Origin: Herbidospora cretacea
GTDB taxonomy: Bacteria; Actinomycetota; Actinomycetes; Streptosporangiales; Streptosporangiaceae
NCBI RefSeq assembly: GCF_001570605.1
Contig: NZ_BBXG01000009.1
Coordinates: forward strand, 1-64,000
DNA length: 64,000 nt
Reading direction: 5' to 3'
The notes beneath the pieces are model-generated. The model searched no databases. It worked only from the letters and a program-made list of their open reading frames with translations, and was not told where the DNA came from. Below are positions 47,694 to 63,351 of the stretch, piece after piece; position 1 is the first letter of the stretch; each line of letters opens with the position of its first letter. A program made the translations under genes and the position numbers.

Positions 47694-48262
47694 TCAGACA
47701 ATGGCGAGCTTCTCCAAACGCGCCACGCAGTCGTTGATCATGGCTGGGGGCATGCGCTTGGCGGCGGCTTCGGCCGCTGACTCAGGGGCGGCGCCGTACT
47801 GCCACCAGACCTGGCCGGTGGTTCGGTCGGTGACGAGGAAGCGGTCCTTGACGGCCGGTCCTCGCACGATGAGGGAGACGGTGTCGGGCCGGGAGACGGC
47901 GGCGTGGACCATGCTGTGGTGCGGGGTGTAGCCGGGGCCGGGCTGTTCGGTGCGGACCATGAGGGGCTGGAGGGCGGCGACGTCGATGGTGTTGTCGAAG
48001 TCGTCTTCGGTGCCGTACAGGCTGGGTATGTGGCGGCCGGACAGCAGGCGGGCGGAGTAGGTCCAGCGGTGGTTGTGGGGTCGGTCGTAATGGTCGGGGC
48101 CGAACAGATGCAGCCGGACGCGGAAGCCGGACGGGTCGTCGTGCAGGACCAGCTTGTCCAGGATGTCGTAGTGCTTGCACAGGCTCGGGAGGCGCTCGTC
48201 CCCGTACACCGGTTCGACGACCTGCCGCAAGGCGGTCGTGGTCCTGGGCTGGCGGAGAGCAG
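47694..48262 (-). pseudogene. Truncated second copy of the cupin gene
   Basis: The 178-aa frame from 48230 is nearly the same as the full cupin protein at 52065-52718 (shared HYDILDKLVLHDDPSGFRV, LFGPDHYDRPHNHRWTYSAR and others). It lacks the first 40 or so residues. Just upstream, LSA and RTTTALRQ of the missing part are still readable in another frame. It may still yield a shortened protein, but the indel and truncation suggest a dead duplicate left from a second copy of the downstream operon. Confidence 0.65.
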
Positions 48263-48277: not shown

Positions 48278-49459
48278 CTACGGAACGATGCGAAGCACCG
48301 GACGCTGGTCGGCTATCCCGAGAAGTTCACGGACCCGGGAGGCAGGCCAGGCGAGCTGGCCTGCCAGATCGTGCATGGTGAGCCCTGTCTGCTCGGTAGC
48401 GAGTTCGAAGGCTTGCCGGAGGAGAACTGGAAGTTCCCCTGGATAGCCGGTAATCGACTCGGACGTGAAGCCGGGTTGGCTCCGGAGCTCATGAAGTCGC
48501 TGATAGCCGCGGCTGGCGGCTGAGTCGGACAGCAGGCCGACCTCGCGGCAGCGATAGAGGAGCGAGTCGACCGACACTCCCCATTTGTGGCGGAGCTCCG
48601 CCAGACGGCGCAGATCCAGTCGGCCTGGTAGCTCGGAGAGGATGCTGTCCCGGGGGGTGAGGAATTCTGCGGCGAAGCTGTCCGCTTCGCGTTCTTGCCG
48701 GGAGTCGCCTGCGGGAGCGTCGCCGTGCAAGATCAGATGGCCGAGTTCGTGAGCTGCGGTGTAGCGGTAGCGGTGAATGTCGTCGTATCGGTTGGCGGTG
48801 AGCACGATGATCGGCCGGGGTAGTTGAAGCGTGGAGAACGCGTCCACGGTCGCCACGTCTTTGTCCGCAGGAGGAAGCACCACGATGATCCCGTGTGCCT
48901 CAAGGTGTCGGACGAGGTGGGAAATCGGGCCGGTTCCAAGCCCCCACCGCTGTCGCAGAGCTTGAGCGGCACGTACTGGGTCACGGGACAGCTCTGTACC
49001 AGGGTGGACTTCTCCGCCTGAGAATCCGGGTAGGTCGACAGGAGGGAACGTGACTTGTTTCTCCAGGGCCAAGGCCAGCTCCCAGACCTGTTCGACCAAG
49101 GCCATGGCTTTGGCCCGCTGGTACACCCTGGCTGATCGCAGGCTTCGGAAGTAGGTCATAGAGCCGTCCAACTTGCCGTGCGGCCGGCCCGCCAGGAAGA
49201 ACTGCATCGGAACACCGAGCACGTCGGCCAGTCGTGGGACCAGATCCCATCGTGGGCGGTTCGTCCCTGTTTCGTATTGGCCGATGGCGGCTGGGGAGAC
49301 ATCGATGCTGTCCGCGAGCTCCTTCTTCGTCATCCCGGCAAGGTGTCGCGCCTGCGTCAACCTGGCTGGGTCGAACGCATCGAGGATCGCCTGAGGACTC
49401 GACGACTCATCGAGACCGGACTGTCCCGAAATGCGTCGGCCCTGCTTGCTACTGCTCAT
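48278..49459 (-). CDS. XRE-family HTH protein with ImmA/IrrE-type metallopeptidase domain
   Basis: ATG 49459 overlaps the stop of the upstream gene by 11 nt; the longer frame to 49630 is its shadow. The 393-aa protein has an XRE helix-turn-helix at about 30-90 (LTQARHLAGMTKKELADSI, AAIGQYETGTNRPRW) and a zinc peptidase domain. HELGH at 237-241 and EADSFAAEFL (Glu257 region) give the metal ligands. Members of this fused family cleave repressors or antitoxin-like partners under stress. Its co-translated partner upstream is the likely target or effector. This looks like a regulatory or defence pair. Confidence 0.8.
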   Translation of the reverse strand: MSSSKQGRRISGQSGLDESSSPQAILDAFDPARLTQARHLAGMTKKELADSIDVSPAAIGQYETGTNRPRWDLVPRLADVLGVPMQFFLAGRPHGKLDGSMTYFRSLRSARVYQRAKAMALVEQVWELALALEKQVTFPPVDLPGFSGGEVHPGTELSRDPVRAAQALRQRWGLGTGPISHLVRHLEAHGIIVVLPPADKDVATVDAFSTLQLPRPIIVLTANRYDDIHRYRYTAAHELGHLILHGDAPAGDSRQEREADSFAAEFLTPRDSILSELPGRLDLRRLAELRHKWGVSVDSLLYRCREVGLLSDSAASRGYQRLHELRSQPGFTSESITGYPGELPVLLRQAFELATEQTGLTMHDLAGQLAWPASRVRELLGIADQRPVLRIVP

Positions 49460-50240
49460 GATCCTCAGCGGATGCGGTCTCCTCGTCCGCCTCACTGTTG
49501 ACGGGGAAGACCGCTTCGTTCTTCCGCTCGATCTCGGGCCGCGGGGTGATCGTAAGGTCGGGCAGCGTTCCGTGGTCGAAGCGCTCGGTGGATTCCAGCT
49601 CCGGAGTCGCAACACTGCGGAGACGGCCATCGGGCCGGGTCAGCTGGATCAGCTCTTTATCGATCCACTTGAGACGCCCGAAGGCGTCAACGACGACAGC
49701 CTCCCCCCAATACAGCTGGATGGGGCCAGCCTTGTCGTTGGCCGCGTGGGCGATCAGAATCAGCCGCGTCCCCTCCGGCAGGTGAGTCAGAACGGGCTCG
49801 GGGCCGGTGTCCTCGGGTGTGTCCCAGATGGGGTCCTGTACGTAGGAAGGCTTCGGGCCGAACTGGTTGAACAGGCTTTCCACAAGTCCAGAGAGCCGGC
49901 TCTCACCAATACGCGCGTCCTCGATAGGGGTCGTGTTGTCCTTGGCGTACCGGAAAGGGAAGAGCAGGTTCTCGCCGACCAGGACGAGTTCGTACGGGGC
50001 GGCTTTAGGCTTGACGATCTGGACTTCCGGAAGGTCACGGAAGTTCTCGACGAGCCTTTCGTAGCGAAGGGTCATCAGCGTCGAGCCGAAGGTGAATCGC
50101 TTCTTGCTGCCCGACACCTCCTGGGCGTCCTGGGCGTTCGCCACGGCTTGGAGAAACGACTTGGACACCAGGTCTCGTATCGCCCCGGCCTGCTCGCCGA
50201 AACGTCTGGTCGCCCAGTTGGAGCTCTCGTCGCCGCTCAC
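49449..50240 (-). CDS. Unknown protein paired with the XRE-ImmA/IrrE gene
   Basis: The 263-aa protein has no signal peptide or membrane segment. It begins MSGDESSNWATRRFGEQAGA and contains FTFGSTLMTLRYERLVENF, VLVGENLLFPFRYAKD, RLILIAHAANDKAGPIQLYW and an acidic C-terminus. I recognise no family. The overlap with the peptidase gene and the shared transcript make it the obvious partner. A role as toxin, sensor or protease substrate is possible. Confidence 0.6.
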   Translation of the reverse strand: MSGDESSNWATRRFGEQAGAIRDLVSKSFLQAVANAQDAQEVSGSKKRFTFGSTLMTLRYERLVENFRDLPEVQIVKPKAAPYELVLVGENLLFPFRYAKDNTTPIEDARIGESRLSGLVESLFNQFGPKPSYVQDPIWDTPEDTGPEPVLTHLPEGTRLILIAHAANDKAGPIQLYWGEAVVVDAFGRLKWIDKELIQLTRPDGRLRSVATPELESTERFDHGTLPDLTITPRPEIERKNEAVFPVNSEADEETASAEDHEQ

Positions 50241-52064: not shown

Positions 52065-52718
52065 TCAGATGAGCGCGAGCTTTTCCAGCCGGGCTATGCA
52101 GTCGTTGATCGTGACGGGGGTCATGCGCTTCACGGCTGCTTCGGCCGCAGATTCGGTGGCGGCGCCGTACTGCCACCAGACCTTGCCGGTCGCGCGGTCG
52201 GTGACGAGGAAGCGGTCCTTGACGGCCGGACCTCGCACGATGAGAGAGATGGTAGCGGGCCGGGCGACGGCGGCGTGGACCATGCTGTGGTGCAGGGTGT
52301 AGCCGGGGCCGGGCTGTTCGGTGCGGACCATCAGGGGCTGGAGGGCGGTGACGTCGGTGGTGTCGTCGAATCCGTCTTCGGTGCCGTACAGGGTGTGGGT
52401 GTAGCTGCCGGACAGCAGGCGGGCGGAGTAGGTCCAGCGGTGGTTGTGGGGCCGGTCGTAGTGGTCGGGACCGAAGAGGTGCAGTCTGACTCGGAAGCCG
52501 GACGGGTCGTCGTGCAGGACGAGCTTGTCCAGGATGTCGTAGTGCTCGCACAGGCTCTGGAGGTGCTCGTCGCCAGACACCGCCTCGACGGCCTGCCGCA
52601 GCGCGGTCGTGTCCTGGGCCAGGGCCGAGAGCAGTTCCCCGGTGGCCGCCTCGACCTGGGCGGCGTCGTTCCAGTCCAGTTCGCGCAGGGCCCGGGTGTA
52701 GGAGTCGATCAACGTCAT
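52065..52718 (-). CDS. Cupin-fold protein, last gene of the radical SAM operon
   Basis: ATG 52718 follows TAGGAG, 10 bp after the PfkB stop. The 217-aa protein has a helical N-terminus and then a cupin-like core: FRVRLHLFGPDHYDRPHNHR has an HNH that could hold a metal, with HSMVHAAV in the second strand pair. Cupins serve as dioxygenases, isomerases or binding proteins. The presence of a truncated duplicate 4 kb away shows this gene, perhaps with its operon, has been copied. Its reaction is unknown. Confidence 0.65.
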   Translation of the reverse strand: MTLIDSYTRALRELDWNDAAQVEAATGELLSALAQDTTALRQAVEAVSGDEHLQSLCEHYDILDKLVLHDDPSGFRVRLHLFGPDHYDRPHNHRWTYSARLLSGSYTHTLYGTEDGFDDTTDVTALQPLMVRTEQPGPGYTLHHSMVHAAVARPATISLIVRGPAVKDRFLVTDRATGKVWWQYGAATESAAEAAVKRMTPVTINDCIARLEKLALI

Positions 52719-52728
52719 GCTGGTTCTC

Positions 52729-53604
52729 CTAGTGTGGAAGAGACAGTGGTGACGGTTCGGGCGAGCAGTGTTCGGTGCCGGTCCGGCAGGCGTGGATCAG
52801 GCAGTCCTTGATGTCGCTGCCGGCGAGATGGGCGACGGCGAATCCGGCGGAGAACGCGGCACCGGCGCCGTGGGTGTGCGCGATCGGTCCGGTGCATGCG
52901 GGCTCGTGGTGGAAGCCGGTCTCGGTGCGGGCGAGCACGCCGTGTCGGCCGAGGGTCACGAGCGTGATCTGCGGGCGTAGCTGCTCATAGACGCTGTCGG
53001 CGGCTCTCTCGGCTGCATTCACCTGGTTGTCGGGAAGGCTGGTCTGGACGGCGAGGAGGTTGGTGCCGACAGCGGCTTTCTGGATGGCTGGGTGGATCGG
53101 ATCGCCGCCGAGGTTCAGCATGATCGGGCCGTCTGAACGGGTGACGTGCTCGAGGGCTTGGACGGCCGCGTCGGTGATGATTTCGTAGCAGTCGATGTAG
53201 GCGAGCCGGGCCGGGGCGAGCAGGGACATGTCCGCGTCGAGAAGGTCAGCGGTCGCCGAGCTGAGATGGGCGAACCACGTTCTGGTGCCGGTCCGATCAG
53301 TGATGACCGTCAGATTCGGCGTGACGGTCCCCGGTCGGGCGGAGATGCGGTGTCGGACCCCGTAGCGCTCCAGTTGCGCGAGGAGGTCGAGGCCGACGGC
53401 ATCTTCGCCGACGTCATTTCCGCTGAGGGCCACCCGCAGGCCCTGGCTGGCAGCGGTGATGGCGGTGATGGGTCCGTCGCCGGCCAGGGACTGGAGGGCA
53501 TCGTGGACCTCGGCGCCGGTGTCGGCCGCTGGGTAGCGGTCGACGGTGAGCAGGCGGGCGGCGGCGAGGTAGCTGAAGCAGGAGAGGTCCACGATGCTGG
53601 TCAT
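52729..53604 (-). CDS. PfkB-family protein lacking the catalytic Asp
   Basis: The 291-aa protein has the PfkB/ribokinase fold (ITAASQGLRVALSGNDVGED, TRTWFAHLSSATADLLDADM, ITLVTLGRHGVLARTETG). The second signature, normally DTxGAGDxFxxG, reads HTHGAGAAFSAGF. The catalytic Asp is therefore Ala, and ordinary sugar kinase activity is doubtful. It may bind a nucleoside or sugar as a regulator, or use another base. It begins one base after the NUDIX stop. Confidence 0.75.
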   Translation of the reverse strand: MTSIVDLSCFSYLAAARLLTVDRYPAADTGAEVHDALQSLAGDGPITAITAASQGLRVALSGNDVGEDAVGLDLLAQLERYGVRHRISARPGTVTPNLTVITDRTGTRTWFAHLSSATADLLDADMSLLAPARLAYIDCYEIITDAAVQALEHVTRSDGPIMLNLGGDPIHPAIQKAAVGTNLLAVQTSLPDNQVNAAERAADSVYEQLRPQITLVTLGRHGVLARTETGFHHEPACTGPIAHTHGAGAAFSAGFAVAHLAGSDIKDCLIHACRTGTEHCSPEPSPLSLPH

Positions 53605-53605
53605 G

Positions 53606-54043
53606 TCAGGACCAGCCGCGCTCGGAGTACACGTCGCCCTTGATGCAGTGGGCCAGCGCGTCGGCGGCGTAGGGGATCATCTGGTCGGGGAGCGCGTCGA
53701 GGGGGAACCAGCGCCACTCGACGCATTTGTCGGGCTCCATGTTGGTGATCTCGCCGGTCCACTGTTCGGCCTCGTAGAACAGGGCGGTGCGGGCGTCGTT
53801 GGTGTAGTGGTGCATGAGGTGGGCGAACTGGACGTCGCCGGGTTCGATCGTGACGCCGATCTCCTCGGCGGCCTCGCGGAGGGCTCCCTGGCTGGCCGAC
53901 TCGCCGGGGTCGAGGTGGCCGCTGGGCAGGTGCCAGGACCCGTCGGCGTAGCCGGTGTTCTGGCGCTGGCCCAGCAGGACCTGGTCGCCCCGGCGGAGGA
54001 TGAGGTGCAGGTCCACGCAGGTCTTGTAGCGCTCGCTCGACAT
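53606..54043 (-). CDS. NUDIX hydrolase
   Basis: ATG 54043 follows AAGGAG; the longer frame to 54493 is a shadow of the radical SAM gene. The 145-aa protein has the complete NUDIX box GHLDPGESASQGALREAAEE followed by IGV, which binds metal for pyrophosphate hydrolysis. Substrates are nucleoside diphosphates linked to another group. In this operon it could trim a nucleotide intermediate or an activated sugar, next to an adenylate-kinase-like gene and a PfkB gene. Confidence 0.85.
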   Translation of the reverse strand: MSSERYKTCVDLHLILRRGDQVLLGQRQNTGYADGSWHLPSGHLDPGESASQGALREAAEEIGVTIEPGDVQFAHLMHHYTNDARTALFYEAEQWTGEITNMEPDKCVEWRWFPLDALPDQMIPYAADALAHCIKGDVYSERGWS

Positions 54044-54060
54044 AGGTGCTCCTTGGTGGG

Positions 54061-55200
54061 TCAGTTGGCCGGGGTGGATTTCCACAGCCGGCAGACGGGG
54101 ACGATGTCCGGCTCGGTGCAGGAGGCGGCGCCGTCGATGAGTTCCTCGGCGGGACAGCCGCCCATGCACGAGGTGGTGGCCTTGCAGTCGCCGCAGGCGG
54201 CTTTGGTGAGGGCTCCGGTGAACAGGTCGAACTCGTTGGGGCCCTTGTTGATCTCGATCTGGCCGTTCGTGCTGGTGGCGTAGTTCAGTTCGGTGTCGAA
54301 CAGGAAGGAGCACACGTAGGCGCGTCCGTCGGGGAAGATCGAGATCCGGTCCAGGGTCCGGCCTATGCAGCCGCGATAGCCCTCTTCCTCGTAACGGGGC
54401 ATCTCGGAGCGGCGCGCGAAGGTCGGCTGGTACCAGACGCGGGTGCGGTGCTTGGCGGCGATCAGGGGAAGTTCGTCGCAGAACTGGAGCCACTCGGTGG
54501 GGTTCATGCCCCAGGACTCGTTGTCGTGGCCGCGTCCGATGACGGAGAAGACGTGGAACTTCACCAGGCTGACACCGAGGTCGTCGGCGATGGTCAGCAG
54601 GTTCAGGCAGTCGCTCTGGTTGGCCTTGTTGACGGTGCAGATGATCCGGGTGTCGAAGCCGCGCCCGGTCAGTTCCCGGATGGTCTCCAGCGTGGTGGCG
54701 AAGGTGCCCTCGCCGCGGACGGCGTCGTGGGTGGCGGGTGATCCGCCGTCCATGCTGATCTGCACGTAGGCGAAGTCGGAGGGCTCCAGGCGCCGGAACT
54801 TCCTGGCGGCCGGGCCCAGGCCGTTGCTGGTGGTGATGACGTGCTCGTACCCGAGCTCGCCCGCCAGCCGGATGGTGTCCTCGTAGCGCGGGTGCAGGGT
54901 CGGTTCGCCGCCGAGGATGGTCAACTTGGAGCCGCCCATCTGCCGCCAGGCCGTGAGGTTGTTACGGATCTCCTCGAAGGGCATCTTGAGGGCGCGTTCC
55001 AGCCGCTGGCCCATGTAGCAGGAGCCGCAGCGGAGCTGGCACGCCTCGGTGATGTAGAGGTAGACGTTGCGGAACCTGCCATAGGGCACGCGGTCGATGC
55101 GCCGGACCTCGGGGTCGTCGGCAGAGACTGGCATCCTGGCGTGGCCGTAGGCATCGCTGCCGGTCCTGATCGCCGGCATCGGGAGGTCGACGGAAGTCAC
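54061..55200 (-). CDS. Radical SAM enzyme with SPASM-type C-terminus
   Basis: GTG 55200 overlaps the preceding stop. The 379-aa protein has the cluster motif CQLRCGSC (Cys54, Cys58, Cys61), GGEPTLHP and the SAM-binding strands. A C-terminal Cys-rich SPASM-like region (CIGRTLDRISIFPDGRAYVC, AACGDCKATTSCMGGCPAE) holds extra iron-sulfur clusters. SPASM enzymes mostly modify peptides, but some act on sugars or small molecules. The operon has two tiny ORFs nearby that might be peptide substrates. This is the central enzyme of the proposed pathway. Confidence 0.88.
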   Translation of the reverse strand: MTSVDLPMPAIRTGSDAYGHARMPVSADDPEVRRIDRVPYGRFRNVYLYITEACQLRCGSCYMGQRLERALKMPFEEIRNNLTAWRQMGGSKLTILGGEPTLHPRYEDTIRLAGELGYEHVITTSNGLGPAARKFRRLEPSDFAYVQISMDGGSPATHDAVRGEGTFATTLETIRELTGRGFDTRIICTVNKANQSDCLNLLTIADDLGVSLVKFHVFSVIGRGHDNESWGMNPTEWLQFCDELPLIAAKHRTRVWYQPTFARRSEMPRYEEEGYRGCIGRTLDRISIFPDGRAYVCSFLFDTELNYATSTNGQIEINKGPNEFDLFTGALTKAACGDCKATTSCMGGCPAEELIDGAASCTEPDIVPVCRLWKSTPAN

Positions 55201-55883
55201 TGGCTACTCCTGGTCGAGGGACAGTTGGAGACTGCGTCCAGAGCGACGGCGAGGACCTCGCAGGCCGGAGGGTGGCTGTCGACCGTGCGCCACGGAATCC
55301 CGTGACCGGTCAGAGCCGTGTAGATCTCGGGCAGGCGGCTGGTGAAGCGCTGGGTGCGGGAGCTGAGCCGGTCCGGGTTGTCGTCTTGGCGCTGAAGCAG
55401 GGTGTTGCCACATCTGGCGCAGGTATCGGCGGTGGTGACCTGGGCTGGCTTGTGTGGTTGTCCCGTGGCGGTTGGCTCGCAGTGGAGGCAGACGCGCCGG
55501 AGTTGAGCTCGTTGCAGAGCGGTTGCCCAGTCGGCGCGGAGGTGGATCACCGTCGCGGAGACGTCCAAACGGGTCAACAGGTCCGCCAGGTGCCGGGATT
55601 GCACACCGTTGCCGGGGTAACCCTCGAACACCACAGGTGTTTCACCAGGCTGGAAGGGACCGGAGATGGCGTCGTGAACGAGCTGGGTGGCGATGTCGTC
55701 CGGGAGCCAGCCGAGGGAGTCCCGGCTCGTCCCTTTGAGAACAGCCGTCTCAGCTTCGGGAAGGCTCTGGACGTACTCGCGTAATCGGAACAACCGTGCG
55801 TTGCGCTTGGCTACGAGTTGCTCGGACAGGGTGCTCTTTCCGCTCGCTGGCGGACCGAAGAGGATCACCACCGGCCCCGTCAC
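55197..55883 (-). CDS. Adenylate-kinase-like P-loop kinase with zinc lid
   Basis: GTG 55883 overlaps the GNAT stop. The 228-aa protein has a P-loop GPPASGKST near its start, a lid region with CLHC and CARCG that could bind zinc, and VFEGYPGNGVQSRHLADLL like the nucleotide-binding segment of adenylate kinases. It is longer and more divergent than Adk. It probably phosphorylates a nucleotide or nucleotide-like product of the pathway. Confidence 0.75.
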   Translation of the reverse strand: MTGPVVILFGPPASGKSTLSEQLVAKRNARLFRLREYVQSLPEAETAVLKGTSRDSLGWLPDDIATQLVHDAISGPFQPGETPVVFEGYPGNGVQSRHLADLLTRLDVSATVIHLRADWATALQRAQLRRVCLHCEPTATGQPHKPAQVTTADTCARCGNTLLQRQDDNPDRLSSRTQRFTSRLPEIYTALTGHGIPWRTVDSHPPACEVLAVALDAVSNCPSTRSSQ

Positions 55884-56818
55884 GACACCCTCCCGTTAGC
55901 CCTGAAGTAGCGGATCTGTCCTGCCGGGGCCAGGCCGACCGCGTGCAGGTCGGACAGAAGGTCGGTAGCGCTGTCCGGAACGATCGCGCGCACCACCGGG
56001 GCGTGATGGCGGAGCCCGGCGGCGAGGGCAGCGGCGATCAGCGGCGCGGCAACGTCGGACCGCTCGGTGGCTGGGTCGATGAGGACATCAGCCAGCAATG
56101 CCTCAGTGGGTTCGGCAGGGTCCATATGGGCCAACGGGTACATCAGGGCGGCTCCGCGGAGTTGATCCCCGGTTCCGGCGGCGATGAGAAGGCCGTCGCT
56201 GACGAAGCGTTCGTCTGCGGTCCAGCGCAGGTAGGTGTCCTCGGCGACCTGCTGCCCATGCTCAGGGTGAATGGACTGGTAAAGGCGGCTCAGGGCGTCG
56301 GCATCGGAAGCTTCGGCCTGCCGTACTCCCACACGGCCGGGGTGAGGAACATCCGGCAGGGCAGTGAGGTCGGCTTTCAGCAAGGTGGCGGTGGAATGGA
56401 GCTGCCATCCAGCCCGCTCGAAGAATTCGCACCCGTGTTTGCGAGCCTCCGGGATTTCGGCGGTGAGCAGGCTTGCTCCACCGTCGTGGCATCTAACCGC
56501 CTGCTGCAGCAACGCCGTACCGAGTCCGCGCCGCTGCCATTCTGGAGCGACGATGGGACCCCACAGCCGCGCCGACAAGCCGGGTGCCGTCCCATGCCGA
56601 AGCGCAGCAGCGCCGGCCAGTGTGCCGTTCGGCAGACGGGCCAGGAGCATCGTCGTCGGCTGGGCATTGCCGTTGCGGCGGAGCCGGGAGCGTACTAGAG
56701 CAGAGGTCACCGGCCGTTGGTCGGGCCAGCCGCGCATGGCGGCGTACCCCAGGTCCGCAAGCTTCTCGTCCAGCGCGGTGCCGGGCAGATAGACAACGCT
56801 ACTGATTGGCGGTGTCAT
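55880..56818 (-). CDS. Double GNAT acetyltransferase-like protein
   Basis: ATG 56818 overlaps the methyltransferase stop by ATGA. The 312-aa protein has two GNAT domains in tandem. The first, about 1-150, has the acetyl-CoA motif WQRRGLGTALL and EFFERAGWQL. The second, about 160-312, is more degenerate (VRQAEASDADALSRLYQSI, RYFRANGRVS at the end). It probably acylates an amine in the pathway product or gives self-resistance. Confidence 0.75.
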   Translation of the reverse strand: MTPPISSVVYLPGTALDEKLADLGYAAMRGWPDQRPVTSALVRSRLRRNGNAQPTTMLLARLPNGTLAGAAALRHGTAPGLSARLWGPIVAPEWQRRGLGTALLQQAVRCHDGGASLLTAEIPEARKHGCEFFERAGWQLHSTATLLKADLTALPDVPHPGRVGVRQAEASDADALSRLYQSIHPEHGQQVAEDTYLRWTADERFVSDGLLIAAGTGDQLRGAALMYPLAHMDPAEPTEALLADVLIDPATERSDVAAPLIAAALAAGLRHHAPVVRAIVPDSATDLLSDLHAVGLAPAGQIRYFRANGRVS

Positions 56819-57621
56819 GGGCGCCTCGGTCGGGTGGCTGCTATGCCGACGCAGACGCTGCCGCGTCCGGTCAGAAAGGCGGGATGGAGAGCCAGCGCGG
56901 CCGTGGGAGGGGCGCTACGGGTGAACACGCGAACCTGGCCGAACCTGCTGCGAAAGACGCTGGCGATTTGGTTTTGAGAGGCGAACGGGCTGGGCCGGGA
57001 CGGACGGCGAAGCCGCTGTCGGGCGAGATCCATCCGCTCTGCCGAGGTCGCGGGCCACGTAGTGGCCGTCAGGGCCTGTCCAACTCGGCCGATCCGGTCG
57101 TACTCAAGGTGGCCGGCAAGCCCGGCGACGCGGGTGGTGTAGAGCAGCAGGCCGTCGTCGGAAAGAAGACCCGCCAGCCGGGCGAGCACCGCTTGGCGGT
57201 CGGCCGGGCCGGGCAGCAGTGACAGCAGTCCATCGGTGACAACCAGGTCGAACGGCCCAGCTATCCCGCAGAGCTCAGGTGCTTCGGATTGCAGGGCGGC
57301 AACCTGCACACCGGTTTCCTTCGCCCAAGCGTTGATCAGAACCAACGGTGTGGGACAGGAGTCGGCCACCGTGATCCGCATGCTGGGCTGAAGCTCGGTG
57401 AGGACCTGCGGCATGGTCTCGTCCGAGGAGCCGCACACCAGGGCTTCCGACGGCTGCCTGCCGGCCAGCGCACGCTGATAGAAAGCGCTGTGCCAGCGGG
57501 GGTTGCCCTTCAGACCCGTTCGCCGGAACAGCCGCCACGAGGCGTGGTAGCAGAAACAGCCCCGGGCGCAGTTCTCGCGGGCGGCGGTCCAGGCGCCTCT
57601 GATCGTGAGAGAGCCCGTCAT
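56815..57621 (-). CDS. Class I SAM-dependent methyltransferase-like protein A
   Basis: ATG 57621 overlaps the next upstream gene's stop. The 268-aa protein has a Rossmann-like methyltransferase core with an unusual motif I (EALVCGSSDETMPQVL), acidic strand 2 (ITVADSCPTPL) and FDLVVTDGLLSLLP. The N-terminus contains CARGCFCYH, a short Cys-rich patch. The weak motif I leaves open whether it still binds SAM. Confidence 0.68.
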   Translation of the reverse strand: MTGSLTIRGAWTAARENCARGCFCYHASWRLFRRTGLKGNPRWHSAFYQRALAGRQPSEALVCGSSDETMPQVLTELQPSMRITVADSCPTPLVLINAWAKETGVQVAALQSEAPELCGIAGPFDLVVTDGLLSLLPGPADRQAVLARLAGLLSDDGLLLYTTRVAGLAGHLEYDRIGRVGQALTATTWPATSAERMDLARQRLRRPSRPSPFASQNQIASVFRSRFGQVRVFTRSAPPTAALALHPAFLTGRGSVCVGIAATRPRRP

Positions 57622-58394
57622 TGTTTCCGCCCTATGAGGTGGAATAGACGGGCGACCTGTCGGTAGGGGTCACGACATCCGGCCTGCCACTCGGCTTCCA
57701 GGACGTAGTCGAATCCTTCGCCGACCGGGGCGTCGCCGAGGTGGTCGGTGAAGACCCGCACCCCGTACCACTCGGAGGTCGTCACACCGGCGTCCCCGAG
57801 GATCGTCTCGACTGCGGCGAGAGTGTCGGCCCTGCTGCTCACCCCGAGGTTGCCCTCAACGGAACCGGCCCCCATCACCGCGGCCGCATCCGCCCACCGG
57901 CCTTCCAATCCGGGGCGCATCGCCAATGCGTCCGCGTTCTTGGTCAGCAGCGATAGCAGGCCGCCCGGCCGCACCGCCGACGCGAGGTCGGTCAGAAAGG
58001 TGTGGGGGTCCTCGGCGTACATCAGCACGCCGTGGCAACAGACGAGGTCGAAGCCGTTCTCGGCCAGGTCTCTGGCCTGATCGGCGGTGCCTTCGACCAG
58101 CATGACCCGAGTACGGACCTGATCGCTTTCCGCCGTCAGCCGGTCGGTAGCCCGCTTGTGCATGCCAGGATCGGGGTCTAGCAGTGTCACTCGATGTCCG
58201 GCCCGTGCGAGCAGGACGGCCTGGTGGCCATCGCCGCCGCCGACGTCCAGGACCTGCTGAGGGTCGGCGGGCAGATGGATGCGCAGGGCGCGGGCGACCA
58301 GCGCGTGGCGGAGTGCGCCTCGCAACGTCCCGGCGTGACGGGCGTAACCGGCCGACAGGTCGGCTCCGGACGCCGATGTCCAGCTGTTGCTCAC
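57618..58394 (-). CDS. Class I SAM-dependent methyltransferase B
   Basis: GTG 58394 follows AAGGAGA and overlaps the previous stop; the frame to 58871 reads through the upstream gene. The 258-aa protein has a canonical methyltransferase fold: VLDVGGGDGHQAVLLA (motif I), VTLLDPDPGMHKRA, FDLVCCHGVLMYAEDP and LASAVRPGGLLSLL. It resembles the Cmo/SmtA-type small-molecule methyltransferases. Methyl transfer yields S-adenosylhomocysteine, which fits with the SAH-hydrolase-like gene that begins the operon. Confidence 0.82.
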   Translation of the reverse strand: MSNSWTSASGADLSAGYARHAGTLRGALRHALVARALRIHLPADPQQVLDVGGGDGHQAVLLARAGHRVTLLDPDPGMHKRATDRLTAESDQVRTRVMLVEGTADQARDLAENGFDLVCCHGVLMYAEDPHTFLTDLASAVRPGGLLSLLTKNADALAMRPGLEGRWADAAAVMGAGSVEGNLGVSSRADTLAAVETILGDAGVTTSEWYGVRVFTDHLGDAPVGEGFDYVLEAEWQAGCRDPYRQVARLFHLIGRKQ

Positions 58395-59029
58395 GGGTGT
58401 GTCTCCTTCGGCGAGAGCAGCGAATCGAACAGGTCCTGGTGCTGAAGCACCAGGCGGATCGACAGGTAGCGGGTCCGCAGCAGCTCGCGGAGCACGCGGA
58501 CGCCCGGCGTGTCGGGGAGGGTGCCCTCGCGCGCGGCGCGGCGCAGCGCGATCAGCTGGGGTATGCGCGCTTCGACCTGCTGCAGGTCGATCGGGAGGTC
58601 GCGGTCCAGCCACGAGCGGAGCCTCTCGACGGTCATGACCTCCCACACCACGGCATCGCCCCAGACTCCGTCCGGGCCTGCGGCGGTGACCAGGTGCGGG
58701 ATGCGGCACAGCCGTGATTTGGGCAGTGGCGGCGGTACCGGGCTGGTCACACATGCGGCCTCCCCACTGCGACGGCCCCGGATCTGGCTCAGGTGCCTGG
58801 AGAAGGCCAGCGCCAGACCGGTCTGTGCCAAAGCGATTCCGGTCGGGGCGATGGCCACGGCTTCGACCCACGAGCGCTGGGCCGAGGTCAGCGCGAGGCG
58901 TACGGCGGCGAGGGGATCGTGTTCCTCGTGCCAGACCCGCCGTCGTGCCCCGCAGGTGACGACCCCCGGACTGAGCAGGAGGCCGGCGTCTTGGGCGGTA
59001 AAGAGCCGCTCACCCTGGGCGGTGATCAC
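58391..59029 (-). CDS. Unknown operon protein
   Basis: GTG 59029 and the stop at 58391 overlap both neighbours by 4 nt. The 212-aa protein has helices (SWVEAVAIAPTGIALAQTGL, IDLQQVEARIPQLIALRRAA) and no recognised domain. The acidic-aromatic segment WGDAVVWEVMTVERLRSWLD is notable. Its place between the SAH-hydrolase-like and methyltransferase genes argues for a role in the pathway. I do not know its family. Confidence 0.65.
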   Translation of the reverse strand: MITAQGERLFTAQDAGLLLSPGVVTCGARRRVWHEEHDPLAAVRLALTSAQRSWVEAVAIAPTGIALAQTGLALAFSRHLSQIRGRRSGEAACVTSPVPPPLPKSRLCRIPHLVTAAGPDGVWGDAVVWEVMTVERLRSWLDRDLPIDLQQVEARIPQLIALRRAAREGTLPDTPGVRVLRELLRTRYLSIRLVLQHQDLFDSLLSPKETHP

Positions 59030-60510
59030 CGGGTCGCCTCCGGGCCGAACCGCGCGTAGTAGCGCTCAAGCAACCCGCAGGACTCCAGGACCCGGTTGGA
59101 GGCTTCCACGTTGTGCCCCGCGATGAAGCCGTGATCTGGCGCCGCGAGGGTGGACGCGGCCACCAGGAGGCTGGCGAGGATCAGGTCGGAGTACATGTTC
59201 GGCAGGGACTCGGCGTGGTGGAAATTGATGGGGAAGCCGTCGCCCACGAGCGTCACCTGTACACCCGATGGAAGATGCAGCCGCGTTCCCAGCACACCTT
59301 CGTCGGTGACCAGCCGCGCCTCTTCTTCCAGCTCCGCGACCGCGAACTCCCGGTTACGAGAGGTCGTGGAGACCAGGTAGCAGTTCCGGCCGATCGCGGC
59401 GGCATGTTCGCCGCGTAACCCGGTCCGGCCGGTGCAGCCGATGACCAGCAGCGGCCGGTGGTCGCGCAGGAGGGTGCTGAGGCACCGGTTGGTGAGGTAT
59501 CCGCGTTCGTGCGCTGCGATCAGGCGAACCAGCTGCCGGTCATGGACGGCCACGCGCATGCGGCGTGATCTCAGGACGTCGGCGATGTGTTCGCCGATCC
59601 GCCCGAACCCGACCACGAGGGCAGGCCGGCCTTCGAGTTTCTCCTCCGGGAGAAGGCGCAACAGGTTGCGGACCGCGGCGTCGGCGATGCCGTAGCACTC
59701 TACCGTCGCCTTCAGCCGCGACTCGGCGACCGAGAAGATCGGCAGTGGAAGCCGCCCTTCCCAGGGTTCCAGCCGGGTGATGCCCGAGATCGTCTGCTCG
59801 ACGAGGCCGATGAAGTGCGGAAGCAAGTCGGGGCGCTGCGCCAGCAGGACTGGAAGTGTGTAGCCACCGTCGTCGATCAGCAGTCCTCGCAGGCCGAGGG
59901 CGGCGGCACGCCGGGTGTGATCGTCCAAGGCGTCCGTCGCGTTCGTCCACGGCCATACCGCGATGCCTTGCCTGGTCAAGTGGGCGTCTACCCGGTCGGT
60001 GTGCTGGTAGGGGTACCCCTTGTCCAACACAGTGATCGCCTGCGCGGGCACCCCCATCGCCAGGACCGATTCCACCATCACCAGGAAATCGGTCATGTGA
60101 TGAACCGTCAGCACCGGAGCCAGCGAGGACAGAGTTCCCGGCGGAAGAAAGGCGGGCAGTTCGCCCGTCAACGGCATCTGACCGCGCAGCGCCTTCATCT
60201 CGGTCGTGGTGAACGGAATCCGTCGTACGGCGGTCTGAAGCGTCTGCACCTGGTCGGGAGACAGGCCTTCCGTCTCCTCCATGATCAGGGTCGCGATGTG
60301 GGTGTCCGAGGAGGTCGCCTTGGGTCGGGACGGCGTGCTGACAAATAGGCGGACGCATGCCTCGGTTCCCAGACGTAGGCGTGTGCCGGCGCCGTCGTGG
60401 GTTGCCTCTCCGATGTCAGTGACCTTGGCGATTGCCTCGATCACCGCATTACGCACCATCAACAAATCTGCAGCTTCACCACGGATCTCGGTGGTTACGA
60501 CGCTCTCCAT
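59026..60510 (-). CDS. S-adenosylhomocysteine hydrolase-like NAD-binding protein
   Basis: This 494-aa protein starts at ATG 60510 as the first full gene of the operon. It has a central Rossmann fold (ALVVGFGRIGEHIADVL) and the SAHH-type arrangement on either side (VAESRLKATVECYGIADAAV before it; LVTDEGVLGTRLHLPSGVQV and GFPINFHHAESLP after it). The K-DN-YGC core of true SAHH is not clear, and the N-terminal 100 residues are unrelated to SAHH. It may act on a modified nucleoside or a thioether rather than SAH itself. Confidence 0.72.
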   Translation of the reverse strand: MESVVTTEIRGEAADLLMVRNAVIEAIAKVTDIGEATHDGAGTRLRLGTEACVRLFVSTPSRPKATSSDTHIATLIMEETEGLSPDQVQTLQTAVRRIPFTTTEMKALRGQMPLTGELPAFLPPGTLSSLAPVLTVHHMTDFLVMVESVLAMGVPAQAITVLDKGYPYQHTDRVDAHLTRQGIAVWPWTNATDALDDHTRRAAALGLRGLLIDDGGYTLPVLLAQRPDLLPHFIGLVEQTISGITRLEPWEGRLPLPIFSVAESRLKATVECYGIADAAVRNLLRLLPEEKLEGRPALVVGFGRIGEHIADVLRSRRMRVAVHDRQLVRLIAAHERGYLTNRCLSTLLRDHRPLLVIGCTGRTGLRGEHAAAIGRNCYLVSTTSRNREFAVAELEEEARLVTDEGVLGTRLHLPSGVQVTLVGDGFPINFHHAESLPNMYSDLILASLLVAASTLAAPDHGFIAGHNVEASNRVLESCGLLERYYARFGPEATR

Positions 60511-60515
60511 GGATA

Positions 60516-60590
60516 TCAGGAACGCCCTTCCGCGGTCGGCCGCGTCGGGGCGGTGCGCCTGTCACCTGCACTGCTCGAAAAGTTGATCAC
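60516..60590 (-). CDS. 24-codon leader ORF before the operon
   Basis: GTG 60590 has AAGGGAG 7 nt upstream and the frame ends five bases before the SAHH-like start. The peptide begins MINFSSSAGDRRTAPTRPTA. It may be a leader that couples translation of the operon or a small modified peptide. Confidence 0.4.
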   Translation of the reverse strand: MINFSSSAGDRRTAPTRPTAEGRS

Positions 60591-60827
60591 TCGTGTGCTC
60601 CCTTGCTGACGTGACCGAGACTCGGCCGAACCGATGAAGACGGCAGGAGTTCGTACAGGTAAGGGGAGGTGGCGGCGTCGCATGGCGATAGGTCCGTGAG
60701 ACGCCGCCGGAGGGCGAGGGCAATGGGCAACCCTCGCTCCTCATGTACGGCCGAACTGTCCCCTCCTTCACCAGCAGGGCCGTACGTCGGATGGCGCGAT
60801 ACGCCGCACCCGCATCGCGCCCCATGG

Positions 60828-61139
60828 TCAGCGGGGCGGCAGGACGCCGGTGCGGATGAGGCTCATTTCCGCATTGAGAACGGCTCGGCGAAGTTCCTTC
60901 GGCGTGGGCGCGGTGACGACGAGCGGCGTGTCGACCGGCCATTGGGCCATGGCGCAGAACTCGCGCTGCCAAGTCAGCCAGATGACCAGCCAGCCGGAGT
61001 GCTCACGGTTGAGTTCGTCGGCGAAGCGATGCCCGGCGTAGTGGTCGATGCGCCGGTCCCGGCGGGCGGTACGGGATGAGCCCGGGTGGTGGTCGCCCTT
61101 GGGGTGCTTGAAACGGTCGATAGCTCGACGGAGGACCAT
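60828..61139 (-). CDS. Unknown conserved small protein
   Basis: ATG 61139 shares its A with the preceding stop (TGATG). The 103-aa protein reads HYAGHRFADELNREHSGWLV, IWLTWQREFCAM and PTPKELRRAVLNAEMSLIR. It is soluble, with no known family. It and the next gene form a pair upstream of the radical SAM operon and could be regulatory subunits. Confidence 0.6.
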   Translation of the reverse strand: MVLRRAIDRFKHPKGDHHPGSSRTARRDRRIDHYAGHRFADELNREHSGWLVIWLTWQREFCAMAQWPVDTPLVVTAPTPKELRRAVLNAEMSLIRTGVLPPR

Positions 61140-61780
61140 CACGACTGGTACTCCTCGTCGGCTCGCTGGGCGATCTGTTCCTGGCTGTTGATCGCTCGGG
61201 CCAAAGCGGCGAGGTCGTCCGCGTCGACGGCCGGAGTGGCGCCCGCCTCGCGTGCGGTCTTGCCGAAGTCCTCCTTCCGCCAGGCCCACAAGCGCCCGAC
61301 GTCGCTGGTCAGGTATCTCCACGTGTCGGGAACCTCGGGCGTCGGGCTGGGCATGGCGCGGACCTCCGGTGCGTGGGAGGAAGAAGTAGAGGGACGAGGT
61401 GCCTTCGACGTGAGCGGACGGCTCGGAGGGCGGTTCGGCATCGGCCGGGTGCGGGAAACGACCGTGCTTCGGGGACGGTCGGTACGACGCCGCTGCGCCG
61501 GCACCAACGCGGGAGTCTCCTCCGAGGGGGTGACAGCTGCGGGAGCGGTCGGCCGGGGAAGAGTCTGAGGTCCGGTCGCGCGGCGGGCCGCGAGACGTCG
61601 GGCCGCCTGGTCTGAACTCGGGGGGACGTAATCGTGGTCGTGCTGGTCAGAGCATGCATGCGCGTACGGGGCATGGCCGCAGTCGCCACACCCCATGGGC
61701 ATGGGCATCGATTGACCGAAGCAGACGCAGTTCTCTGAGTGCGCGATGCCTCGTTCGAGGGTCGCACTAGTGTTGGCCAC
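61139..61780 (-). CDS. Unknown protein with Cys/His-rich N-terminus
   Basis: The 213-aa protein has an N-terminal CVCFGQSMPMPMGCGDCGHA, which with nearby His could hold zinc. A long Pro/Ser/Arg disordered middle and a helical C-terminus (WRYLTSDVGRLWAWRKEDFG, LAALARAINSQEQI) follow. The pattern suggests a scaffold or regulator. It is co-translated with the gene that follows. Confidence 0.6.
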   Translation of the reverse strand: MANTSATLERGIAHSENCVCFGQSMPMPMGCGDCGHAPYAHACSDQHDHDYVPPSSDQAARRLAARRATGPQTLPRPTAPAAVTPSEETPALVPAQRRRTDRPRSTVVSRTRPMPNRPPSRPLTSKAPRPSTSSSHAPEVRAMPSPTPEVPDTWRYLTSDVGRLWAWRKEDFGKTAREAGATPAVDADDLAALARAINSQEQIAQRADEEYQS

Positions 61781-62520: not shown

Positions 62521-62544
62521 TTCAGTGGAAGATAGGGTTGTGTG

Positions 62545-63351
62545 ATGGCCGTGCACTCGCGTTACCTGGACCTCGCCGCTCAGATCCGAGCGCGAATCGA
62601 GGCCGGTGAGTGGGAACCGGGAGCCAAGCTCCCTCGCCTGGACGACTTCGCATCCGAGTACGGCGCCAACAGGGACACCGTCGGCCGGGCGATCGGTGTG
62701 CTGGAGTCTGAAGGGGTCGTCTGGGCCGTTCAGGGCCGGGGAATCATCGTCCGACACGGCATGATGCGGCTGCGCAGACCACGAGGGAACCTCGTGAAGC
62801 GAAACGTCGCCGCCGACGGTCCCGGCTACTCCTTCCCCTCGGCATCCGGCCAGGAGGTCTGGAAGCACCATGTTCCCGCCACTACGTCGATCGAGCCGCT
62901 GACGGATCCGAGGATCGCGAAACTCCTGGGAGTGCCAGCGGGCAGCTCGGTGATGCGCCGGTTCCGCGTGACCGGGCCGGAGTCCGAACCACCGTTCCAG
63001 ATCAGCGTCTCGTGGATCCATCCGCGTGGGGTCGAGGACGTCTCGGACATCGATGCTGAGGCGACCAGCCCAAGCGAGTGGCTGTACCGGCTGGAGAAAG
63101 CCGGTCACTGGCCCATCACCTGGATGGAGATCCACAGAGCCCGCATGCCCACCAAGGACGAGGCGACCCTGCTGGAGATCCCCACCAGCCTGCCGGTATT
63201 GGAGATCGTCCGGGTGGGGACCTCGGGAGGTGACGGCAAGCCCATCGAGGTGACGGAGTACATCGTGGCCGGTGACCGCGTGGAGACCGTACATGTTCTC
63301 CACCGCGACGAGTCGGCCCAGTGTCCGTGGCCGGATGAGGCCGCACGATGA
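62545..63351 (+). CDS. GntR-family regulator with UTRA effector domain
   Basis: ATG 62545 is used (GTG 62542 is one codon earlier). The 268-aa protein has the GntR winged helix (YLDLAAQIRARIEAGEWEPG, FASEYGANRDTVGRAIGVL, GRGIIVRHG). A UTRA ligand domain (IAKLLGVPAGSSVMRRFRVT, WMEIHRARMPTKDEATLLEI) follows. UTRA domains bind small molecules, so the regulator probably senses a pathway metabolite. It overlaps the phosphatase gene and is divergent from the unknown genes. Confidence 0.85.
   Translation: MAVHSRYLDLAAQIRARIEAGEWEPGAKLPRLDDFASEYGANRDTVGRAIGVLESEGVVWAVQGRGIIVRHGMMRLRRPRGNLVKRNVAADGPGYSFPSASGQEVWKHHVPATTSIEPLTDPRIAKLLGVPAGSSVMRRFRVTGPESEPPFQISVSWIHPRGVEDVSDIDAEATSPSEWLYRLEKAGHWPITWMEIHRARMPTKDEATLLEIPTSLPVLEIVRVGTSGGDGKPIEVTEYIVAGDRVETVHVLHRDESAQCPWPDEAAR

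Follow-up and report, generated by a model that had tools for sequence, protein, structure and literature searches.

In the biosynthesis of angustmycin A, the enzyme AgmF, which is annotated as an S-adenosylhomocysteine (SAH) hydrolase, does not accept SAH and acts instead on a nucleoside; its essential residues are reported to be H56, D129, K184, D188 and H299 (PMC8599513). Here, we consider a set of ten genes in the soil-dwelling actinomycete Herbidospora cretacea that combines an SAH-hydrolase-like (SAHH-like) protein with a radical S-adenosylmethionine (SAM) protein carrying a SPASM domain. It lies in the window, by which we mean the whole 64,000-nucleotide stretch that was analysed (assembly GCF_001570605.1, contig NZ_BBXG01000009.1, positions 1 to 64,000). 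The ten genes appear to constitute one biosynthetic unit that results from the joining of two exchangeable blocks, both of which are present twice in this genome. The best reading, to which we give slightly less than half of the total probability, is that of a modular cluster for a specialised metabolite of nucleoside or nucleotide type, the product class being what we infer from sequence comparison. The author of a preliminary description of this DNA knew of no described pathway with this gene set, and none was found in the open-access literature that was searched.

The unit comprises ten open reading frames (ORFs), all on the minus strand, from 52065 to 60510; an end previously placed at 60590 is 80 nt upstream of the first start codon (60510). 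The start codons adopted for MT1 and for the NUDIX gene are at 58394 and 54043, respectively. Just as first described, most genes are joined by 4-nt GTGA/ATGA overlaps, found at six of the nine junctions (1–2, 2–3, 3–4, 4–5, 5–6 and 6–7); gaps of 17, 1 and 10 nt occur at junctions 7–8, 8–9 and 9–10. Domains were called with Pfam and NCBIfam, and scores were compared with the curated cut-offs. The features, with the block to which each belongs, are:

59026..60510, minus strand: gene 1, SAHH-like NAD (nicotinamide adenine dinucleotide) enzyme, 494 aa, block A (NCBIfam adenosylhomocysteinase)
58391..59029, minus strand: gene 2, conserved protein, function unassigned, 212 aa, block A
57618..58394, minus strand: gene 3, class I methyltransferase MT1, 258 aa, block A (Methyltransf_11, E 3e-17)
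56815..57621, minus strand: gene 4, diverged methyltransferase-like MT2, 268 aa, block A (Methyltransf_12/25, E ~1e-3, under cut-offs)
55880..56818, minus strand: gene 5, GNAT-type acetyltransferase with mycothiol-synthase-like layout, 312 aa, block A (Acetyltransf_1, E 7e-12)
55197..55883, minus strand: gene 6, adenylate-kinase-like (ADK-like) P-loop kinase with four-cysteine LID, 228 aa, either block (ADK profile, E 5e-19)
54061..55200, minus strand: gene 7, radical SAM/SPASM protein, 379 aa, block B (Radical_SAM, E 1.5e-20)
53606..54043, minus strand: gene 8, NUDIX hydrolase, 145 aa, block B (NUDIX, E 1e-21)
52729..53604, minus strand: gene 9, PfkB-fold protein without the catalytic Asp, 291 aa, block B (PfkB, E 1e-17)
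52065..52718, minus strand: gene 10, cupin-like protein, 217 aa, block B (PHNH motif)
60828..61322, minus strand: small upstream ORF, a possible eleventh member, mostly inside a segment (60691-61155) with a match at the corresponding position of the second copy

The second full copy of the ten genes is found on contig C5 of the same genome, in the same order and with proteins that are 72–96% identical (tblastn); in BLASTN, window 60507-52065 matches C5 333550-342028 with 86% DNA identity. Similarity between the copies stops at the stop codon of gene 10, downstream of which identity is approximately 0.5–0.6, and the sole upstream match is a 470-nt piece (window 60691-61155) with 71% DNA identity. 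The ratio of nonsynonymous to synonymous substitution (dN/dS) is 0.07–0.31 across all ten genes, so that both copies look to be under purifying selection. Taken together, the second copy, the end of similarity at the last stop codon and the low dN/dS argue that the gene set is not due to chance, and bear out the proposal that the ten genes are one unit. Within it, dS is 0.46–0.78 for genes 1–6 and 0.08–0.21 for genes 7–10, the level changing at the border between the kinase and radical SAM genes; genes 7–10 thus share a later history than genes 1–6, possibly because of gene conversion or of a later insertion that was copied into both places.

Block A (the SAHH-like gene, gene 2, MT1, MT2 and GNAT) occurs in two congeners, H. 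yilanensis NBRC 106371 and H. mongoliensis NBRC 105882, with 72–90% identity; genes 6–10 are absent near it in the 18-kb stretches searched. In H. yilanensis it is followed by genes for an aldo/keto reductase (AKR), an endonuclease/exonuclease/phosphatase-family protein (EEP) and a B12-radical SAM protein; the first two also read after block A in H. mongoliensis. These labels are domain calls made on relatives, the B12 match being just under its cut-off. Three of seven Herbidospora genomes, the present one included, have an SAHH-like match at E <= 1e-100. Among 246 genomes of the class, MT2 (E <= 1e-12) gave three matches, namely this genome and two of another family (G193 and G223), where one order holds: ADK-like kinase (33–35% identical), SAHH-like gene (56–57%), gene 2-like (40–41%), MT1 (48%), MT2 (34–37%) and GNAT (38–39%), with genes 7–10 not found in 19.5 kb at either. 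A variant is carried on plasmids of Streptomyces sp. MMBL 11-1, Streptomyces sp. NBC_01724 and Kitasatospora sp. NBC_01519, and consists of GNAT (31–33%), SAHH-like (50–53%), gene 2-like (30–32%) and MT1 (38–40%) genes together with a phosphoribosyltransferase (PRTase) and a HAD hydrolase; these last two accompany the others at all three plasmid loci with an SAHH-like protein at least 49% identical. MT2 as query found no match among plasmids; when plasmids were searched at near identity for the whole operon, only 2% of it matched, in N. farcinica. Gene 2 is not an orphan, since its relatives (30–41%) adjoin the SAHH-like gene in Streptomyces, Kitasatospora, G193 and G223; when 84,980 species were scanned directly for proteins close to gene 2, only two loci were returned.

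SAHH-like genes are also seen in other settings. H. mongoliensis has one (L018, 10061-11398; 47% identical to gene 1) with none of the other nine genes within 13 kb. At four further loci (L021, L022, L023 and L135), the SAHH-like protein is long and has an additional, Gfo/Idh-like Rossmann part, and its gene adjoins one for an APH-type phosphotransferase; domains were called on L021 and L022, L135 being taken from annotation and L023 from reading.

Block B (the radical SAM/SPASM, NUDIX and cupin-like genes, often with the PfkB-like gene, together with the kinase) is sporadic at large and common in one genus. At E <= 1e-60, two of the 396 genomes sampled from the phylum have its radical SAM family (A1), the window's own being one of the two; the family also occurs in 4 of 250 genomes of the window's taxonomic family (own genome included) and in 2 of 35 of the family of G151. 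In the genus of G170, taken as Nocardia because it includes the N. farcinica record, 41 of 148 genomes match at E <= 1e-40, one of them (G725) with distant relatives only. Within 7 kb of 49 such radical SAM genes, the kinase was found 44 times, NUDIX 43, cupin 43, PfkB 25 and an SAHH-like gene once; genes 2–5 were found at none of them. All 49 are counted, including L080, which duplicates the L040 record (N. farcinica), and L120–L125, which are short, truncated or distant. The order in Nocardia is kinase–radical SAM–cupin followed by PfkB and NUDIX genes, convergent in most, and in Herbidospora and G905 it is kinase–radical SAM–NUDIX–PfkB–cupin; the linkage of block B thus survives rearrangement. 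G905, of another genus in the same family, provides the single locus with an SAHH-like gene (L119; 29% over 273 aa), which stands ahead of the kinase with a QueC-like PP-loop protein and a P-loop-type ORF; identities there are 40% for the kinase, 79% for radical SAM, 71% for NUDIX, 56% for PfkB and 72% for the cupin. The preliminary description had named conservation of all ten genes together in distant genera as a check; the complete set was observed in this genome's two copies and nowhere else, and it is each half that is co-conserved in distant genera.

More distant relatives of gene 7 (31–38%) occur as tandem pairs on Kitasatospora and Nocardia plasmids (L041, L042 and L043), adjoining a gene with a nucleotidyltransferase domain and another annotated as glutamate--tRNA ligase, with a flavin-dependent (FAD) monooxygenase at two of the three. 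G233 (L121, L125) has three partial relatives on different contigs, two of them 48–49% identical; L125 also has a match to a DegT aminotransferase.

The two blocks have a regulator in common outside this genome. A divergent upstream XRE-type (HTH_31) gene of the L045 type is present at 44 of the 49 radical SAM loci and at the block A loci of G193 and G223, and an alpha/beta hydrolase gene at 17 of the 49 and in G193; neither was found at the Herbidospora loci, at L119 or at the three Streptomyces/Kitasatospora loci checked. The neighbours themselves are exchanged. G135 has counterparts of the H. mongoliensis AKR (66%) and EEP (54%) and of the B12-radical SAM protein from H. yilanensis (63%), next to a formyltransferase, a DegT aminotransferase and a cupin of the gene 10 type (45%); similar sets are on plasmids of S. 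europaeiscabiei and Nocardia NBC_01327, in which DegT has a long N-terminal extension (with sub-threshold P-loop/thymidylate-kinase matches in S. europaeiscabiei). At E <= 1e-10, AKR, EEP, B12-radical SAM, PRTase, HAD and formyltransferase genes have no match in the 49 radical SAM loci, the window, the second copy, G193 or G223, and DegT has one, at the distant locus L125. Comparison shows that block A and block B exist apart in other actinomycetes and that the ADK-like kinase goes with either. A separate cluster type (L047, L133 and L134) has B12-radical SAM, AKR, phosphatase-family, formyltransferase, DegT aminotransferase and gene 10-type cupin genes. Upstream of the window unit itself is a GntR/UTRA gene (62542-63351, plus strand); scans for promoters (none found, 1.0 expected) and terminators (6 found, 4.4 expected) were uninformative.

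The SAHH-like alignment comprised 12 SAHH-like rows and a canonical-type frame of the same genome, numbered after human AhcY, whose catalytic residues we take to be H55, D131, E156, K186, D190, H301 and H353. The Rossmann GxGxxG motif is kept in gene 1, and the equivalents of H55, D131 and K186 are kept in all 12 rows; those of E156, D190, H301 and H353 are changed in all 12. TSR stands at the place of H301 in nine of the 12, and the sequence NFHHAES is found in the Herbidospora, G193 and G223 rows and NFHYAES in two Streptomyces rows. AgmF is outside the alignment and its residues were equated through AhcY; on this basis, the equivalent of D188 is Glu (Gly in two fusion proteins) and that of H299 is Ser (Thr in the fusions). 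The SAHH-like family is therefore unlikely to be an ordinary SAH hydrolase, and SAH recycling, which had been proposed, is not supported, given these changes and a reading frame elsewhere in the genome that has the canonical AhcY residues. Beside this canonical AhcY-type frame, on C19 (L140), is a second frame with canonical catalytic residues.

Nor can the two kinases be taken at face value. The ADK-like kinase has a P-loop, four invariant LID cysteines and several conserved arginines, and the arginine of its DGFPR motif, which contacts the phosphate of adenosine monophosphate (AMP), is Gly in all 17 rows; in the PfkB-like protein, GAGD has become (G/C)AGA, the catalytic Asp being Ala in all 13. 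The NUDIX protein agrees with the Nudix box GX5EX7REUXEEXGU, with G42, E48, R56, E57, E60, E61 and G63 invariant in 12 of 12 rows. In the radical SAM protein, C54/C58/C61 (CX3CX2C) and the seven SPASM cysteines (C278-x13-G-x4-C297, C336-x2-C339-x(4-5)-C345-x3-C349, C370) are present in six of six rows, the variable spacing being x5 in both Herbidospora rows and x4 in the remaining four.

Of the protein labels first proposed, the folds of genes 1, 3 and 5–9 are backed by Pfam or NCBIfam; gene 4 is backed weakly, the label of gene 10 comes from its PHNH motif, and genes 1, 6 and 9 have lost key residues. Gene 1 matches NCBIfam adenosylhomocysteinase at E 6e-23 and 81.3 bits (cut-off 275), and residues 35–220 of gene 5 match the MshD profile (E 2e-4). 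Gene 2 has no Pfam, NCBIfam or PADLOC family match (Pfam and NCBIfam at E <= 0.1). No Pfam or NCBIfam family matches gene 10 at E <= 0.1, and its cupin-like label rests on PHNH, which all 19 rows share without change (L082 departs from the common frame mid-gene), and on a non-significant match to mercaptosuccinate dioxygenase (E 0.39), which ranks second of four PDB rows, behind an unrelated match to the N-terminal part (E 0.19). The predicted structures of gene 2 and gene 10 (pLDDT 49 and 35) are unusable as models. The gene 10 cupin has a third copy, shortened at its N terminus (83–84% identical), at 47694-48230 on the minus strand of the window, behind an HTH/IrrE-domain gene (48278-49630), and a further fragment is at C5:371692-371841.

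The case for a modular unit is made by the second copy, by the separate existence of blocks A and B and by the regulator common to most radical SAM loci and to G193/G223. That for a nucleoside or nucleotide product is made by the recurrence of nucleotide-acting types (the ADK fold with its P-loop and four-cysteine LID, the Nudix box, EEP, and PRTase with HAD) and by the precedent of AgmF. The preliminary description had proposed a modified nucleoside or a peptide; the former fits best, and no precursor peptide was found among short ORFs of 22–110 aa near the radical SAM gene. The SAHH-like enzyme would, with NAD, oxidise a ribosyl hydroxyl of a nucleoside-like substrate and would not hydrolyse SAH; MT1 and MT2 might methylate, and the GNAT protein acylate, such a substrate. 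The ADK-like kinase may phosphorylate an acceptor other than AMP, the SPASM enzyme would carry out a C–H functionalisation, and the NUDIX enzyme could cleave an intermediate of nucleoside-diphosphate type. The cupin-like protein would oxidise or isomerise, and the PfkB-like protein may bind a sugar or nucleoside without normal kinase activity.

Several points weigh against this assignment. There is no glycosyl-bond-forming enzyme in the window unit, and PRTase was found only on the three Streptomyces/Kitasatospora plasmids. Most characterised SPASM enzymes act on peptides. The steps assigned to three of the enzymes are uncertain because of the loss of key residues, and two other plasmid loci with SAHH-like proteins (L135 and L136; 29–31%) have no block A neighbours, as judged by annotation and by tblastn, respectively. 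Finally, genes for a DegT aminotransferase and a formyltransferase accompany relatives of the cupin, an arrangement that would also suit an aminosugar product.

A wider proposal, which is rather unlikely, is a new, combinatorial class of actinobacterial nucleotide-derived small molecules, with different members in different genomes and two versions here. Its scaffold, block A, would consist of a neofunctionalised SAHH-like oxidoreductase with its own TSR and NFH(H/Y)AES signatures, the methyltransferases and GNAT. The interchangeable partners would be SPASM/NUDIX/cupin, B12-radical SAM/AKR/phosphatase or PRTase/HAD, often with the altered ADK-like enzyme and one type of regulator.

Of the alternatives, an aminosugar-like compound, free or nucleotide-activated, survives best, and is still improbable. 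The kinase, NUDIX, PfkB-like and cupin (ketoisomerase) proteins would then handle sugar nucleotides, as might be expected from the gene 10-type cupins that, in G135 and on the S. europaeiscabiei and Nocardia NBC_01327 plasmids, stand beside DegT (extended on the plasmids), formyltransferase, AKR, phosphatase-family and B12-radical SAM genes. However, formyltransferase is at none of the 49 radical SAM loci and DegT at one (L125), neither being in the window, the second copy, G193 or G223, and the SAHH-like enzyme points to a nucleoside.

We think it a little less probable again that the SPASM enzyme makes a ribosomally synthesised and post-translationally modified peptide, or a peptide-derived cofactor of the kind of mycofactocin or pyrroloquinoline quinone (PQQ). 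The SPASM motif is complete, the second-best NCBIfam match of the radical SAM protein is the mycofactocin maturase (82 bits, cut-off 265), and the lack of a transporter among the ten genes would suit a cofactor. However, of 206 families of short ORFs (22–110 aa, within 5 kb of the radical SAM gene and not overlapping the ten genes, from 45 loci), none includes the window or the second copy, which leaves the peptide product proposed earlier unsupported; the families occur only among the other loci and the 14 largest have mostly low coding signal. Pfam and NCBIfam also give no peptidase or recognition domain match among the ten genes.

Two further explanations are very improbable. An anti-phage system of the prokaryotic viperin kind, with kinase and radical SAM enzyme making a modified nucleotide, would agree with PADLOC pVip profiles that match the radical SAM core (E 1e-17 and 5e-13) and with the adjoining kinase and NUDIX genes, but NCBIfam viperin scores 48.5 bits against a cut-off of 180, the SPASM extension is full and seven more genes are of biosynthetic type. 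A tRNA modification operon, in which the radical SAM enzyme would modify RNA, is suggested by CmoM as the top NCBIfam match of MT1, but at 100 bits this is far under the cut-off of 366, the distribution (radical SAM in 2 of 396 genomes of the phylum; SAHH-like in three of seven Herbidospora) is sporadic, and duplication with module swapping is atypical. A Ter-type module for a nucleoside-like metabolite was also considered and rejected: in such modules the PRTase carries extra domains, and that of L130 matches only Pribosyltran (E 4e-5, under cut-off).

The unit offers a testable enzyme set, in which a conserved SAHH-like family that is probably no ordinary SAH hydrolase, a kinase with an altered acceptor site and a PfkB fold without its catalytic base are all linked to a single radical SAM enzyme, itself common in Nocardia. 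The occurrence of blocks A and B apart in nature indicates which genes could be expressed on their own, and a direct comparison is possible between the two copies of this genome, which differ mainly outside block B.

In relation to known systems, gene 1 is like AhcY in its fold, its NAD motif and the equivalents of H55, D131 and K186, and unlike it in the replacement of those of E156, D190, H301 and H353 (12 of 12) and in its score (81 bits against 275). Gene 7 belongs to the same superfamily as the mycofactocin, PQQ and ScmF maturases and has the complete SPASM pattern, but scores far under their cut-offs (ScmF 89/400, mycofactocin 82/265, PqqE 62/381), and the window unit, unlike theirs, has no precursor peptide in the short-ORF families defined above. 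The best solved relative of its core is BlsE, the cytosylglucuronate decarboxylase of blasticidin S biosynthesis (7vob, E 3e-11), although the match is limited to that core (residues 42–211) and reaches 47.8 bits against an NCBIfam cut-off of 400. AgmF keeps the canonical residues, with H299 essential, whereas the gene 1 family has changed several of them, and the agm enzymes named in the available portion of the report include no radical SAM, NUDIX, cupin or GNAT protein, unlike the window unit (PMC8599513). Like the agm cluster as there described, however, the unit has an SAH-hydrolase-like enzyme, here presumed to act in a nucleoside pathway, and the relatives of block A in Streptomyces and Kitasatospora carry a phosphoribosyltransferase and a HAD hydrolase, recalling AgmE and the phosphatase AgmB (PMC8599513).

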